From Akkermansia muciniphila (GTDB lineage Bacteria > Verrucomicrobiota > Verrucomicrobiia > Limisphaerales > SXTU01): DNA of 64,000 nucleotides. The DNA lies in the NCBI GenBank assembly GCA_945874145.1, contig CAMCFN010000011.1:1-64000 (forward strand), in the 5' to 3' direction. Under the pieces are notes generated by a model, which saw only the letters and a list, made by a program, of their open reading frames with translations, was not told the DNA's origin and ran no database searches. Both the position numbers and the translations under genes were made by a program. Of the stretch, positions 51,011 to 55,681 are shown in pieces (position 1 is the stretch's first letter; the number at the start of each line of letters is the position of its first letter).

Positions 51011-52158
51011 GCCGCCCGTTGCACCGCTTGAACGACCCGCTCGACCGTCAGGCTCTTCATGCAGCGGAAATCAATCGGGCATTCGCGCAAGAAGCACGGC
51101 GCACAGGGCGCTTCGCCACGCAGGAGGATGTGGCGGGAGTCGCCGGGCAGTCCCGGACCGGTCAGCTCAATCGAGGTGCTTCCGAACAGCCCGACCAGCC
51201 GCGCGCCCACGGCGGCGGCCAAGTGCATCGGCCCCGTGTCGTTCGTGAGCACGACGCGACAGGCGCGCAGTGCCGCGCAAAGCTCGCGCAGCGAGGTGTG
51301 GCCCGCGAGATTCGTGACGCTGACCGCTGACGACTGAACGCCAACCGCTGGCGTGGCGATGAGTGCAGCCGCGATTTCGGCGGCGAGCGCGCTGTCCGCC
51401 GGGCCGCCAAAGATGACGAAGGAGCAGTTGAGCCGCGCGCGCAGTTTCTTTGCCGTGGCGATGAAACGGTCGGCGGGCCAGCGCTTGGCCGGGCCGTATT
51501 CCGCGCCGGCGTTCAAGCCGATGAGCAAGCCAGCGGACAAGTTGAACTTCGCCTTCACCGCCTCGACCTCGGCGTCCGAGACAGCGATGAACGGTGCCAG
51601 CGGTTCCAATTTCGCACCGAGCGAGGTAGCGAGCTGGAGGTAGTGGAAGATGTGGTGACTCGTTGCCGGCGGAGCGCCGGTCTCCGACCCGGCGCATTGC
51701 GGGTCAGCCACCAGCCGCCGCACTTCCCCCGCTGTCCGCTTCCGCATTTTCACCACGTCCGCGCGCCAAGGGACCGCCTCGGTGAGCAGCCAGTTTCGCC
51801 AGCTTCCCGCATAGCCGATGCGCCGGGGAATCCCGGCCAAGCGCACTTCCAGTCCGGTGCGGAGGGAGTTGGGCATCACGAGTGCGGTGTCGAGGTTCCC
51901 CGCGCGTAGTCGGCGCGCGATGCTGAAAACGCCCTGCTTCGGGGTGAAGGTGATGACCTCGTTCACCGCCGGATGTCCCGCCCACAATCCCGCCAACTTC
52001 TCGTGCGTGAGCAGCGCGATGTGCGTGTCTGGCAGCGCCTCACGCAGTCGCAACAGCGCCGGCGTGGTCATCACGGCGTCGCCAATCCAGTTCACCCCGC
52101 GCACTAGGAGGCGGCGAGGATAGAGGGTAGAGGATAACGGATAGAGGGGCGTCGTCAT
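51007..52158 (-). CDS. waaF: Glycosyltransferase family 9 (heptosyltransferase II-like)
   Basis: 383 aa. GT9 blocks: VRGVNWIGDAVMTTPALLRL at the start, LIGLNAGAEYGPAKRWPADR, VVLTNDTGPMHLAAAVGARL, and the end with CAPCFLRECPIDFRCMKSLT. It adds heptose or a similar sugar to the LPS inner core. Residues 3-15 (PLYPLSSTLYPRR) come from a short tandem repeat, and a second, unrelated in-frame repeat encodes AGSETGAPPAT. The ATG overlaps the upstream acyltransferase stop (ATGA). The exact acceptor sugar is uncertain. Confidence 0.88.
   Translation of the reverse strand: MTTPLYPLSSTLYPRRLLVRGVNWIGDAVMTTPALLRLREALPDTHIALLTHEKLAGLWAGHPAVNEVITFTPKQGVFSIARRLRAGNLDTALVMPNSLRTGLEVRLAGIPRRIGYAGSWRNWLLTEAVPWRADVVKMRKRTAGEVRRLVADPQCAGSETGAPPATSHHIFHYLQLATSLGAKLEPLAPFIAVSDAEVEAVKAKFNLSAGLLIGLNAGAEYGPAKRWPADRFIATAKKLRARLNCSFVIFGGPADSALAAEIAAALIATPAVGVQSSAVSVTNLAGHTSLRELCAALRACRVVLTNDTGPMHLAAAVGARLVGLFGSTSIELTGPGLPGDSRHILLRGEAPCAPCFLRECPIDFRCMKSLTVERVVQAVQRAA
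51671..51694. repeat. GGAGCGCCGGTCTC repeat inside the GT9 gene
   Basis: A 24-mer that recurs, inverted and with one mismatch, in the intergenic gap at 21921-21944. Here it is read in frame within the GT9 protein. Confidence 0.8.
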
Positions 52159-52198
52159 GCTGCTTGGCTATCTTCTATCTTCTCTGCTCTATCCTCTC
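52116..52198. repeat. Inverted repeat spanning the lpxL/waaF junction
   Basis: Arms 52116-52150 and 52168-52198 are inverted copies of GAGGATAGAG-type words. The centre is the ATGA overlap. One arm encodes the last residues of the acyltransferase (RAEKIEDSQAA), the other the first residues of the GT9 protein. Confidence 0.8.
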
Positions 52199-53090
52199 CC
52201 GCGCCACCCCGCCACTTCCCTTCCTTCCACCGGTTGTGCACCCAGAACCAGTTCGCCGGGTCGCGACGGATGGCAGCCTCGAACGCACGGTTCATGTCGC
52301 GGGCCATGTCCTGCGCCGGACGCGGCTGGCCGTTGGCGTGCGTGGGGATTTCGTCGCCCACCTCGATGCGCCAGCGGCCCGGTGCGACGCGATAGCAGAT
52401 GACGGTGAAGAGCGGGCAGCCATAACGCAGCGCCAAGACGCCCGGCGCGACGCTGGTGGAGCAATCGCGTCCGAAGAACGGCAGGCGCACGCCACGGTCG
52501 CCCGCGTGCTGGTCGGTGAAGAGGCCGAGCAACATCCCTGGCTGGCTCATCGCGGTCTTGAGCGCGTCGGCGTCCTTGCGGCGCTCGAAGAACAGGCTGC
52601 CGGACTTCTCGCGCAGCTCCTGCATCACGCGCGTCAGCCCCGCCTGCTTCAGGCCGCGATACGTGGTCGCCACCTGATAGCCCGGCACCCACAACGCCGA
52701 GCGGCCCAGCAGCTCGAAGTTCGCAAAGTGCCCGACCGCGCAGACCACGCTGCGCGGCTTCCCGCCCACCGCCGCCTTGGGAAACTTCTCTGCGCCCACG
52801 AACTCGGTCACAGCGAGGATGCCGTTGGCGTCAAAGCTCGCGGTCTTGACCGCGCAGGCAAAGCTCTCGCCGATACGCTGAAAATTCTCGCGGGCGAGCG
52901 CGCTGACCTCGGCAGCGGACTTTTCCGGGAAACACGCCGCAATGTTCCGCTGGGCGACCTTACGATGCCGCCCGTCCAGCACATACGCCAAGGCGCCGAA
53001 CACCCGCCCAAGTCGCGCCACGGCTCCGAGCGGCAGCGCTTGCAAGAGCGCGACCACGACGCGGGCGAGGATGGTGAGGAGAAAATCCAT
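52155..53090 (-). CDS. lpxL: Lipid A biosynthesis lauroyl/myristoyl acyltransferase-like
   Basis: 311 aa from ATG 53088-53090, which overlaps the pseudopilin stop (TGATG). One N-terminal TM segment (FLLTILARVVVALLQALPLG), then the LpxL/HtrB domain: VCAVGHFANFELLG with the catalytic H-x4-E, LREKSGSLFFERRKDADALK, VRLPFFGRDCSTSVAPGVLA and NWFWVHNRWKEGK near the end. It transfers acyl chains to the lipid A precursor at the inner membrane. The extreme C-terminus is repeat-derived. Confidence 0.9.
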   Translation of the reverse strand: MDFLLTILARVVVALLQALPLGAVARLGRVFGALAYVLDGRHRKVAQRNIAACFPEKSAAEVSALARENFQRIGESFACAVKTASFDANGILAVTEFVGAEKFPKAAVGGKPRSVVCAVGHFANFELLGRSALWVPGYQVATTYRGLKQAGLTRVMQELREKSGSLFFERRKDADALKTAMSQPGMLLGLFTDQHAGDRGVRLPFFGRDCSTSVAPGVLALRYGCPLFTVICYRVAPGRWRIEVGDEIPTHANGQPRPAQDMARDMNRAFEAAIRRDPANWFWVHNRWKEGKWRGGAGEDRAEKIEDSQAA

Positions 53091-53749
53091 CAGGGGAATT
53101 CCAGTCGGTTGGTGAAGGCGTTTGTAACGCCAATCAGCAAATAGCGCGTCAGCCCGGGGCCAGCAAGTTGGTGGGCGCTTCCGTCGGAAAGGCCCACGTT
53201 GCCAACCATCATTCCGCCGTGCAATTCCGGCCCCCAAGTCAGGCTTGTATTGGTCGTTGAAAGCAGAAGGTTCCGTGCCTTCGGCGGCGTGCCATCGAGA
53301 TGCCGGTCTCCCGCCAACAAAAACTGAGGGGAAGTTTCATCAGCGTCGAGGCCGATGAAGTAGCTGACATTGCTGTTATTCAGCGTCGGCCAGTCTCGGG
53401 CACGTCTGCGGGAATCCGAAGGACAGGTTAGGGTCTCGGTTGAGTAGGTTTCGTTCGAGGCCGCCTGAAAATGGCGGAAGACCTGCCCCGTTTCCGCGAA
53501 ATCAAGCGAGCCGCGCGTGTTGGTCGAAGCCCTCATCGGAAACTTGTCACCGTGGTCGTTGGCCCAGACTTTCATGCTGATGCCAATGCCTTTCAGATGG
53601 CTAGCGCAGCGGATGCGCTGGGCCTTGGCGCGGGCGTTTGAGAATGCGGGGATCAAGAGCACCACAAGCACCGCCAGAATTAGGATGACGATGACGAGTT
53701 CAAGCCGGGAGAAGGCAGATGACTTTCCGAGTTGGTGCCGAAAGTTCAC
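53090..53749 (-). CDS. Prepilin-type pseudopilin in the lipid A operon
   Basis: 219 aa from a GTG at 53747-53749. This GTG forms GTGA with the TGA of the lpxK 3'-end copy at 53744-53796, as expected if lpxK was once directly upstream. The prepilin-type helix SRLELVIVILILAVLVVLLI follows a short leader (the usual Gly before the cleavage is replaced by Ser, Phe and Thr by Ser/Arg), then a globular body with CASHLKGIGISMKVWANDHG, CPSDSRRR and GNVGLSDGSAHQL, the H-X9-DG-like ending of this family. It lies between lpxK and lpxL without an obvious role in lipid A. Confidence 0.85.
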   Translation of the reverse strand: MNFRHQLGKSSAFSRLELVIVILILAVLVVLLIPAFSNARAKAQRIRCASHLKGIGISMKVWANDHGDKFPMRASTNTRGSLDFAETGQVFRHFQAASNETYSTETLTCPSDSRRRARDWPTLNNSNVSYFIGLDADETSPQFLLAGDRHLDGTPPKARNLLLSTTNTSLTWGPELHGGMMVGNVGLSDGSAHQLAGPGLTRYLLIGVTNAFTNRLEFP

Positions 53750-53796
53750 TTGAAACAAATCTGCCGCACGCAGTCCTGAAAGTCCTTCGCGCCGGA
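53744..53796. repeat. 53-bp direct repeat, distal copy (lpxK 3' end)
   Basis: Perfectly identical to 54507-54559 over 53 bases with no similarity beyond either end. It encodes (minus strand) the last 16 residues SGAKDFQDCVRQICFK, the stop, and the GTG start of the pseudopilin gene. Confidence 0.97.
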
Positions 53797-53810
53797 ATGG
53801 TCTTGGCTGT

Positions 53811-54227
53811 TCACGAAGTAGGCGGCGGATGCCGATGTCGATGAGATTCCTCTTCGCGGATTGCCAGCACGAGGGGACGGTTCATTTGCAAGGCACCCAC
53901 AGCGGCCCGTCCCGCCGGGGTCAGGCCGACAACTCTGAAACCGTCCCATTTAAAGTGGCTGTGCCACGAGTCACGTCGTGGATGAAACAAACTCACTAGT
54001 TTTCCGGTTTGCGGGTCCACCACTTCCTCTCTTGCTCCTTTCCGCAGCGAGCAGGACACGCAGGCGAGCGCCAGATTATCGAGAGTCGTCTGGCCTCCCG
54101 CTGCAACGGGCACAATGTGGTCCACATGGAAGAGCGCCTCCTGACCCGCTTGTGACAGCCCACAATACTCGCAGCGGTTGTCCGCCCGTTCCACGACTTG
54201 CCGCCGCAGACTGGCCGAGATGGTCAT
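53811..54227 (-). CDS. HNH endonuclease
   Basis: 138 aa. Zinc cysteines Cys19/Cys22 (RCEYCGLS) and Cys56/Cys59 (LACVSCSLRKG) frame the HNH core FHVDHIVPVAAGG (His37) and TTLDNLAL. The C-terminal part (LFHPRRDSWHSHFKWDGFRV, VGLTPAGRAAVGALQMNRP) is typical of a family of small stand-alone HNH proteins seen in Cyanobacteria and other phyla. It probably cuts DNA; the target is unknown. The start overlaps the stop of the 74-aa gene (ATGA). Confidence 0.93.
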   Translation of the reverse strand: MTISASLRRQVVERADNRCEYCGLSQAGQEALFHVDHIVPVAAGGQTTLDNLALACVSCSLRKGAREEVVDPQTGKLVSLFHPRRDSWHSHFKWDGFRVVGLTPAGRAAVGALQMNRPLVLAIREEESHRHRHPPPTS

Positions 54228-54448
54228 GCCGCCAGTCCGCCCAGCCGCTCCGCGCGCGCGCGCAGGACGGACAGCAATTCTGCCAAGTCAACCAGCCCTT
54301 CAGCCTCGTGACGCTCTTCGTCAGTCAAGGGTTTGCCGGCGTCCTGCTGGTCGAGTAGCTGGGTCAGGCGGTGCTGGACTCCTGCCGGAAGCCGAATCCG
54401 GGCGAGTTCATCTGGCACTTCGAGTTCGAGATGCACTGCTTGTGGCAT
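54224..54448 (-). CDS. Small acidic partner of the HNH nuclease
   Basis: 74 aa. Starts HLELEVPDELARIRLPAGVQ, a beta strand plus helix as in small antitoxins, then LTDEERHEAEGLVDLAELLS, a Glu-rich helix. It is translationally coupled to the HNH gene. Similar small proteins precede HNH genes in other bacteria in my recollection; an antitoxin or nuclease-control role is inference. Confidence 0.75.
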   Translation of the reverse strand: MPQAVHLELEVPDELARIRLPAGVQHRLTQLLDQQDAGKPLTDEERHEAEGLVDLAELLSVLRARAERLGGLAA

Positions 54449-54506
54449 GGTTGGAAACTAGCTGAAGGCCCGTGCCGCGACAATCGGTGTTTTGCGTATG
54501 GCCTGC

Positions 54507-54559
54507 GTTCACTTGAAACAAATCTGCCGCACGCAGTCCTGAAAGTCCTTCGCGCCGGA
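54507..54559. repeat. 53-bp direct repeat, lpxK-proximal copy
   Basis: This copy is the true 3' end of lpxK (codons for the last 16 residues and the stop). Identical to 53744-53796. Confidence 0.97.
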
Positions 54560-55681
54560 GAGGATTTTAATTTCCACGCGCATGAAGCAGATGGGCAGAT
54601 CGCGGCGGTCAATCTTCGGGAAGCGCACGGCGTCCTTCTGCGTGGTGACGATGATCTCGGCCTGCCGCTTCTTGGCGCGATTGATGGCGTTGAGGACTTC
54701 CTGCTGCGTGAAGCGGTGGTGGTCGGCGAAGCGCTTGGAATAGACGAGTTCCCCACCCTGCTTAACGAGGCTGGCCTCGAAGCTCTCCGGTTGTGCGATG
54801 CCGCTGAAGCTCGCGACCTTCTTGCCCTTGAGGAAGCTCAGGTCCATGCGCTCGCCGGTGAACACGTCCTCGAAGTAGAGCGGGTGGTGGACGCACTCAA
54901 CCACGCTTGCCTTCGGGTTGTGCTTGGCGATGCGGGCGCGGAGGCGCGCGGTGTCGCCGTCGCTCTTGGTGAGGAAGATGACGCTGGCGCGGTCGAGGTG
55001 CGAAGGCGGCTCGCGCAACGTGCCGCGCGGGAGCAGGTGCTCGTTGCCGAAGGGCTGCTGGCAGTCCACGAGCACAATGTCCTTCCGGCGACCGCGCAGG
55101 TTCCAATACTGGTAGCCATCGTCGAGCAGGAGAGTGTCGCAGCCGAACTTCGCGATGGCGTAGCGGCCGGCCTTCACGCGGTCCTTGTCCACGAGCACGA
55201 CCACGTCCTTCAAGTTGCTTGCGAGCATGTAAGGCTCGTCGCCGGCGGTCTCGGAGTTGAGCAGCAGGTTCTTGCCATCCGAGACGATGCGAGGCGGCGT
55301 GGTGTCCTCGCGGAGGAGCAGCTTGTTCAACAGGCGCGGACCAAGCGGGCCGGGGTTGGAGCGATAGCCGCGCGAGAGGATGGCGACCTTACGACCTGCA
55401 TCGGTGAGCTCACGCGCGAACTTCTCGACGACCGGTGTCTTGCCCGTGCCGCCGACGGTGACATTGCCGACGGCGATGACCTGCACGCCGAGCGTGGCGT
55501 CGCGGAGGATGCGGACGTTATAGAGGAAGAGGCGGAGCTTCACGAGGACCGTGAAGACTTTCGAGAGGCCGAGCAACGTGGTGCGCAGCAGTGCGGCGCG
55601 CTTGCCCTTGCGTTGCTCGAAGATGACTTCGAGCACGAAGGTCTCGGCGGTTTCCGTCCAGTTGCGGAGCGTCTCGCGCAT
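54509..55681 (-). CDS. lpxK: Tetraacyldisaccharide 4'-kinase
   Basis: 390 aa, somewhat longer than E. coli LpxK (328). Walker A GNVTVGGTGKTP with the preceding membrane segment (SKVFTVLVKLRLFLYNVRIL), ILSRGYRSNPGPL, the DDGYQYW block, KSDGDTARL and a late IIVTTQKDAVRFP. It phosphorylates the lipid A precursor at the inner membrane. The final 16 codons are duplicated beyond the HNH cassette, so the gene is intact despite the insertion. Confidence 0.96.
   Translation of the reverse strand: MRETLRNWTETAETFVLEVIFEQRKGKRAALLRTTLLGLSKVFTVLVKLRLFLYNVRILRDATLGVQVIAVGNVTVGGTGKTPVVEKFARELTDAGRKVAILSRGYRSNPGPLGPRLLNKLLLREDTTPPRIVSDGKNLLLNSETAGDEPYMLASNLKDVVVLVDKDRVKAGRYAIAKFGCDTLLLDDGYQYWNLRGRRKDIVLVDCQQPFGNEHLLPRGTLREPPSHLDRASVIFLTKSDGDTARLRARIAKHNPKASVVECVHHPLYFEDVFTGERMDLSFLKGKKVASFSGIAQPESFEASLVKQGGELVYSKRFADHHRFTQQEVLNAINRAKKRQAEIIVTTQKDAVRFPKIDRRDLPICFMRVEIKILSGAKDFQDCVRQICFK

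Follow-up and report, generated by a model that had tools for sequence, protein, structure and literature searches.

How can a pair of small genes enter a row of overlapping genes and leave both neighbours whole? The question is raised by a stretch of 64,000 nucleotides, here called the window, in which an HNH nuclease gene and a small companion gene lie between lpxK and lpxL, enclosed by two copies of the lpxK end. The genome of the window is called G000.

All genes concerned are on the minus strand. Read in their own direction, the order is lpxK, the proximal copy of a 53-bp repeat, a leader, a 74-aa ORF, the HNH gene, 14 bp, the distal copy of the repeat, a pilin-like gene and lpxL. The gene of the tetraacyldisaccharide 4'-kinase, lpxK (54509..55681), is complete (Pfam LpxK, E 2.4e-77; TIGR00682). 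The proximal copy (54507..54559) is its true 3' end including the TGA and thus completes the gene, as the first-pass annotation had claimed. The distal copy (53744..53796) is identical to it. The copies are 763 bp apart from start to start, with 710 bp between them (53797-54506). This interval comprises the 58-bp leader (54449..54506), which is similar in two other genomes of the genus, G005 and G010, the 74-aa ORF (54224..54448) and the HNH ORF of 138 aa (53811..54227; PF01844, E 1.5e-13), which overlaps the small ORF by ATGA. These are the only supported ORFs between the repeat copies, of which the proximal one has its inner edge 58 bp away from the small ORF and the distal one 14 bp away from the HNH stop. 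Sequence comparison and ORF list therefore agree with the earlier description of two identical lpxK ends around a 710-bp unit. The distal copy closes with GTGA, in which the lpxK-type stop, TGA, overlaps a GTG start codon. This overlap had been described correctly, but the gene that starts there had been taken for lpxL. It is a pilin-like gene (53090..53749) with a prepilin-type N-terminus and a weak ComGC match (E 5.3e-6, below its cut-off). Only then follows the gene of an lpxL-type lipid A acyltransferase (52155..53090; Pfam Lip_A_acyltrans, E 4.4e-40), which overlaps the pilin-like gene as TGATG.

The history of the junction can be read from its relatives. Eleven genomes of the genus, G000 among them, were inspected at the lpxK end and for about 1.5 kb beyond. 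Six of them (G001, G003, G006, G007, G008 and G009) have an empty junction, lpxK being directly followed by lpxL. In two (G002, G004), lpxK and lpxL are separated by a pilin-like gene alone, similar to that of the window. The HNH pair is found in three: G000, where it is accompanied by the second lpxK end and the pilin gene; G005, whose second lpxK end measures 47 bp (98%) and which lacks the pilin gene; and G010, where the second lpxK end is absent. In all eight genomes without the pair, the stretch read contains just one lpxK end. These empty and pilin-only junctions mark the cassette as an insertion; the first-pass annotation had suggested looking for empty sites in relatives. It had also stated that both neighbours were left whole, and so they are. 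A cassette-free genome with two lpxK ends, which it had named as evidence to the contrary, was not seen among the eight in the stretch read. The two-gene cassette is an insertion with a long target duplication at the lpxK end. The occupancy pattern of the 11 genomes further indicates separate arrivals of the pilin gene and of the HNH pair, which makes the junction a repeated insertion site. No flank duplication is visible beside the pilin-like gene in G002 or G004. The pilin-like genes (window 53090-53749; loci L004 and L010) are an observation in their own right: here an insertion site inside an overlapping gene pair has been used repeatedly.

G000 is a draft of 157 contigs, and one might think of an artefact of assembly or binning in a metagenome-assembled genome, with strain variants joined at the repeat. 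The stretch is, however, internal to its contig, within the 64-kb window, and G005, a separately assembled genome, has a like arrangement with sequence variants of its own. An error of this kind is therefore extremely improbable.

What was inserted? The clearest aligned pairs of cassettes at different loci (L153/L155 with 93.8% over 787 bp, L072/L098, L114/L125 and L073/L083) show similarity only within a region that opens some tens of bp ahead of the small ORF and closes near the HNH stop. These limits define a discrete unit. By eye, its leader in the window contains TTGTCG-17-TAGTTT, then CCAACC-ATG; a strict promoter scan of the 58 bp yielded no match. By position and length only, an ORF of 45-140 aa lies directly upstream of the HNH gene at 94 of 113 loci of the order and at 77 of 80 loci of the genome_contigs set (cyanobacteria, planctomycetes, chloroflexi and others), and the 74-aa ORF is thus of the usual partner type. 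An alignment of 32 homologues of its product reveals strong conservation from cyanobacteria to planctomycetes (L252-L330). The protein is predicted to be all-helical (pLDDT 86). It has no convincing family match in Pfam, NCBIfam, PADLOC or PHROGs, and a fold search against the PDB gave no match with E <= 0.001. The HNH protein displays the conserved pattern C-C...H...N...C-C...K. Its best PADLOC match is PtuB of the Septu system (E 1.4e-9, residues 4-126 of 138); the PHROGs matches are to generic HNH only, and those in NCBIfam are below their cut-offs. In the HNH protein at the lpxK site of G005 (L052), arginine replaces a zinc-type cysteine that is otherwise conserved (LARVSC versus LACVSC), and the flank repeats are still present there; to judge from this exchange, the protein may be inactive.

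The unit resembles several known systems. Despite the PtuB match, the 710-bp cassette lacks the PtuA-type ATPase gene of Septu. With the small ORF first, the nuclease second and ATGA coupling, it has the two-gene operon layout of type II toxin-antitoxin systems. With VapBC it also shares the similar size and a similar flank duplication (see below), but it has HNH instead of PIN, and its small, predicted all-helical protein belongs to no Pfam or PADLOC family. Homing endonucleases occur only at their cognate site, and their insertion destroys that site. The cassette resembles free-standing HNH homing endonucleases in being a small HNH gene between genes with undisrupted neighbours. It seems to differ from them by its paralogues at many unrelated loci, each possibly with its own site, and by a target junction rebuilt intact on one side; in the window the lpxK end is intact to the left and to the right of the unit, which speaks against destruction of the site. 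Unlike a transposon or IS element, it has no transposase in its 710 bp (ORF list, Pfam) and no short fixed target duplication. The lengths of the repeats vary from 18 to 469 bp across loci, and the earlier view that the 53-bp duplication is not the footprint of a transposase is thereby upheld.

Is the duplication peculiar to lpxK? The HNH search had matches in 57 of 320 genomes; 14 listed places were left out, and a second match in G071:C13 was not scored apart. Of the 116 stretches used, 113 contain a scorable HNH gene (none in L048, L050 and L051). A bridging direct repeat was defined as a blastn hit with E<=1e-4 across the pair, with flanks of either 1.5 kb or 400 bp. As background served 259 pseudo-cassettes from 20 stretches of 14 HNH-bearing genomes of the order and from window positions 1-50000. 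With 1.5-kb flanks, a bridging repeat was found at 41/113 HNH loci and 9/259 pseudo-cassettes, with 400-bp flanks at 25/113 and 2/259. The latter background makes a chance origin of the repeat in the window unlikely. A strict count, which required adjacency and left out five duplicates (L136, L052, L053, L129 and L092) and four loci with less than 150 bp of flank, yielded 19 of the remaining 104 HNH loci against 2/388 random places (p 5e-12). L092 is, in fact, no true duplicate, the site that matches L095 being on another contig of G160; it has no bridging repeat, and restoring it gives 19/105. Six of the 19 are weak, three for having 3-4 local copies (L083, L099, L133) and three for low complexity by eye (L073, L090, L103), which leaves 13/104.

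The expectation that the pair is bordered elsewhere, too, by copies of a neighbouring gene is thus borne out as an excess over background and not as a rule: 85 of the 104 loci have no bordering repeat. The first-pass annotation had regarded pairs without flanking duplications as fatal to its reading. They exist, at these loci as well as at lpxK in G010; yet the insertion stands, since such repeats can decay and their lack does not refute it.

Several of the repeats are gene ends or gene starts by eye. Gene-end reconstitution of this kind resembles the att sites of a tyrosine recombinase, and three or more similar repeats are present at some other loci, as site-specific integration or an integron-type cassette might produce them. 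The unit, however, contains no recombinase, and the repeats mostly differ by site, 32 of 41 matching no other locus of the set; we consider such integration very improbable. Repeat edges fall exactly on stop codons, by eye, in the window and in L079, L086, L123 and L138. A shuffle test of such edges was not significant (3/41 against a mean of 1.44, with 96 of 500 shuffles as high). The test has little sharpness, since gene calls in these GC-rich genomes are disturbed by long antisense ORFs, and these cases are therefore kept as examples only.

In the genome_contigs set 13/79 loci were positive with 400-bp flanks, against 13/431 pseudo-cassettes (p 2e-5), and 21/79 with 1.5-kb flanks. We give this set little weight, since several of its positives are cyanobacterial GCGATCGC repeats. 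The nearest relatives of the window's pair in it (L252, L257, L262, L290) are not among the positives.

The first-pass annotation had proposed that the HNH enzyme itself makes the cut. On this reading the cassette would be a self-inserting unit: the nuclease would nick or cut the target at spaced positions, the cassette would be copied in, and the spacing would set the length of the duplication. A discrete unit with only two genes and the excess of repeats at HNH loci fit it well. A matched control, however, speaks against it. It consisted of VapC/PIN toxin-antitoxin loci of 22 genomes (28 of 30 first places plus 40 further ones, 68 in all, of which 66 entered the strict count). Bridging repeats occurred at 13/68 of them with 1.5-kb flanks and at 7/68 with 400-bp flanks; with adjacency required, the count was 6/66 against 2/388 random places (p 1.7e-4). 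Cassettes whose nuclease is a PIN-domain toxin thus leave a like footprint in the same genomes, and the HNH enzyme does not seem to be required for it. HNH loci exceed VapC loci in the two looser counts (25/113 versus 7/68, p=0.046; 41/113 versus 13/68, p=0.019), which speaks for the self-inserting unit, but in the strict count the difference is not significant (19/104 versus 6/66, p = 0.12). The wide range of repeat lengths, the site-by-site difference of the repeats and the many HNH loci without any also disagree with a nuclease that sets the spacing. The claim that the enzyme makes the cut is thus not sustained, and a self-inserting nuclease unit appears unlikely, though the HNH enzyme may raise the frequency of insertion by cutting DNA. 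Its broader version, a family of about 700 bp made of small helical protein and HNH enzyme that would be self-mobile in several phyla, the nuclease opening the target at spaced positions and the long duplication rebuilding one gene end, strikes us as doubtful.

Two further sites have single-copy counterparts in relatives. In G103, 64-bp copies of a gene start (DUF1501-type by eye) flank the HNH pair; this gene start is present once, without HNH, in G160 and G016. In G005, a VapBC cassette is bordered by 76-bp copies of a gene end (SDR-type by eye), present once and without VapBC in G001, G003 and G004. The latter site has two blemishes: VapC is separated from the right copy by a dispersed palindrome of 75 bp, and there is a further gene ahead of the left copy. 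Together with the VapC loci, this site indicates a footprint that is shared more widely among small two-gene cassettes. The 75-bp palindromic repeat itself (L190 region) is REP-like; it occurs at about 28 places in G005 and at fewer in G000, G001, G003 and G006.

For L123 and L098 no clean empty site was found in relatives. For L087, the relative G046 was considered as an empty site and rejected, since a truncated cassette stands there, together with a single copy of the repeat. At L123 (G046:C49), a gene end (DUF1501-type by eye) appears again within a few kb, as do parts of the cassette, with a third copy, which looks like tandem-stacked insertions. A different picture is seen in L048, L049 and L050, where small ORFs of the 74-aa family lie antisense in microcompartment-like operons between EutN-type and aldehyde dehydrogenase genes (all these names given by eye). 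The HNH gene is truncated in L049 and was not found in L048 or L050. The start of the aldehyde dehydrogenase gene is seemingly duplicated on the far side of the decayed pair in L048 and L049; we set this aside as evidence, since encapsulation peptides could mimic such a duplication.

How old is the insertion at lpxK? For the pairs G000-G005, G000-G010 and G005-G010, the identities are 78.0, 82.8 and 77.7% for the cassette, 76.5, 85.2 and 77.8% for lpxL, and 92.9, 92.3 and 92.5% for lpxK. By these values the cassette looks about as old as the split of the carrier species, and its insertion is probably older than the split of G000, G005 and G010. The lpxK tree does not resolve and does not group the three carriers; losses through recombination of one repeat with the other are accordingly possible, as is exchange among strains. 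The two lpxK-end copies tell a different time. They differ at 0/45 sites within G000 and at 1/45 within G005, which at the rate of the cassette would have probabilities of about 1e-5 and 1.5e-4, respectively. The distal copies of G000 and G005 differ from each other at 3/45 sites (P(<=3/45) at the cassette's rate = 0.005). As the cassette has diverged like lpxL and the repeats are near-identical within each genome, the copies, judged by their divergence, are either homogenised by recombination or remade in each lineage.

Such likeness could also mean that the cassette first inserted cleanly and that the second lpxK end was acquired afterwards through recombination with DNA of a relative carrying the empty or pilin-occupied junction, homologous on the lpxL/pilin side and illegitimate at the cassette end. 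G010 has just such a cassette without a copy, the tail copies resemble each other much more closely than the cassettes do, and in the window a pilin-like gene comes after the distal copy, just as one comes after the lpxK end in G002 and G004. There is also a precedent: for a 1577-bp duplication around an inserted element in Helicobacter pylori ELS37, one homologous and one non-homologous junction have been proposed in the portion of that report drawn on here (PMC4615327). Other details are at odds with a later origin. The distal copy starts at nearly the same distance past the HNH stop in G000 (14 bp) and G005 (16 bp), which indicates one ancestral duplication. A TGC change that is unique to G005 among the 11 genomes is found in both G005 copies, so that its distal copy appears to be of local origin. 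Finally, the like footprint is seen at unrelated sites. We regard this later acquisition as improbable.

The reading that we prefer, and consider likely, is an insertion by off-pathway repair, in which a flank was copied, the neighbours were kept whole and the copies were later homogenised. Its observed part comprises the insertion, known from the empty sites, the duplication, and the recurrence at HNH and VapBC sites; the break and the copying are steps that we infer. In an off-pathway repair event, cassette DNA would be joined to a broken gene junction. The flank would be copied onto the other side, whereby both lpxK and the downstream gene would be whole. Selection would then retain those insertions in which both neighbours are intact. 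Afterwards the two lpxK ends would be homogenised, or the copy remade, lineage by lineage, and in G010 the copy would have been lost.

To our knowledge, no mechanism of long target duplication has been established. The phenomenon was reportedly described in 2000, by Nobusato et al., for restriction-modification genes of H. pylori. In the excerpts of the literature used here, "insertion with long target duplication" is the name of the pattern seen with these genes (Nobusato 2000, cited in PMC1643837 and PMC4978471; see also PMC7494987), recognised by comparison of related genomes (PMC1643837), and the duplicated host DNA is given as "in the order of 100 bp" (review PMC3874152). A review on toxin-antitoxin systems cites Nobusato 2000, in the part drawn on here, for restriction-modification systems (PMC2654758). 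The present cassette agrees with the pattern: a nuclease-bearing gene pair lies between long direct copies of host DNA of variable length, and relatives without the insert have a single copy, at the lpxK junction and at the two further sites. It deviates from the H. pylori inserts in that no methyltransferase lies between the repeats (ORF list, Pfam, NCBIfam), the unit has only about 700 bp, the host is one of the Verrucomicrobiota, and VapBC cassettes behave likewise. The term is thus applied here to the kind of insertion and not to a restriction-modification element, since the cargo is none. Among the papers found to use it, none is by its title devoted to an HNH and small-protein pair. The literature on toxin-antitoxin systems and target duplication, judged by title and beginning of the abstract of the matches listed, holds no report of it for toxin-antitoxin cassettes. 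The kind of insertion is already known; within the literature searched, the novelty appears to lie in its cargo, in the lineage, in the within-genome controls and in its extension to VapBC.

The footprint of long duplication thus marks a widespread pair of HNH enzyme and small protein as well as VapBC cassettes, and the case includes empty sites, discrete boundaries of the unit and a control within the genome. The sites described here are natural places for testing the mechanism of long target duplication. If the HNH unit were self-mobile after all, it could enter even overlapping essential operons harmlessly. The findings, as they stand, suggest that small gene pairs of a selfish or addictive nature share one general way into tight operons, on which their neighbours are left unharmed.
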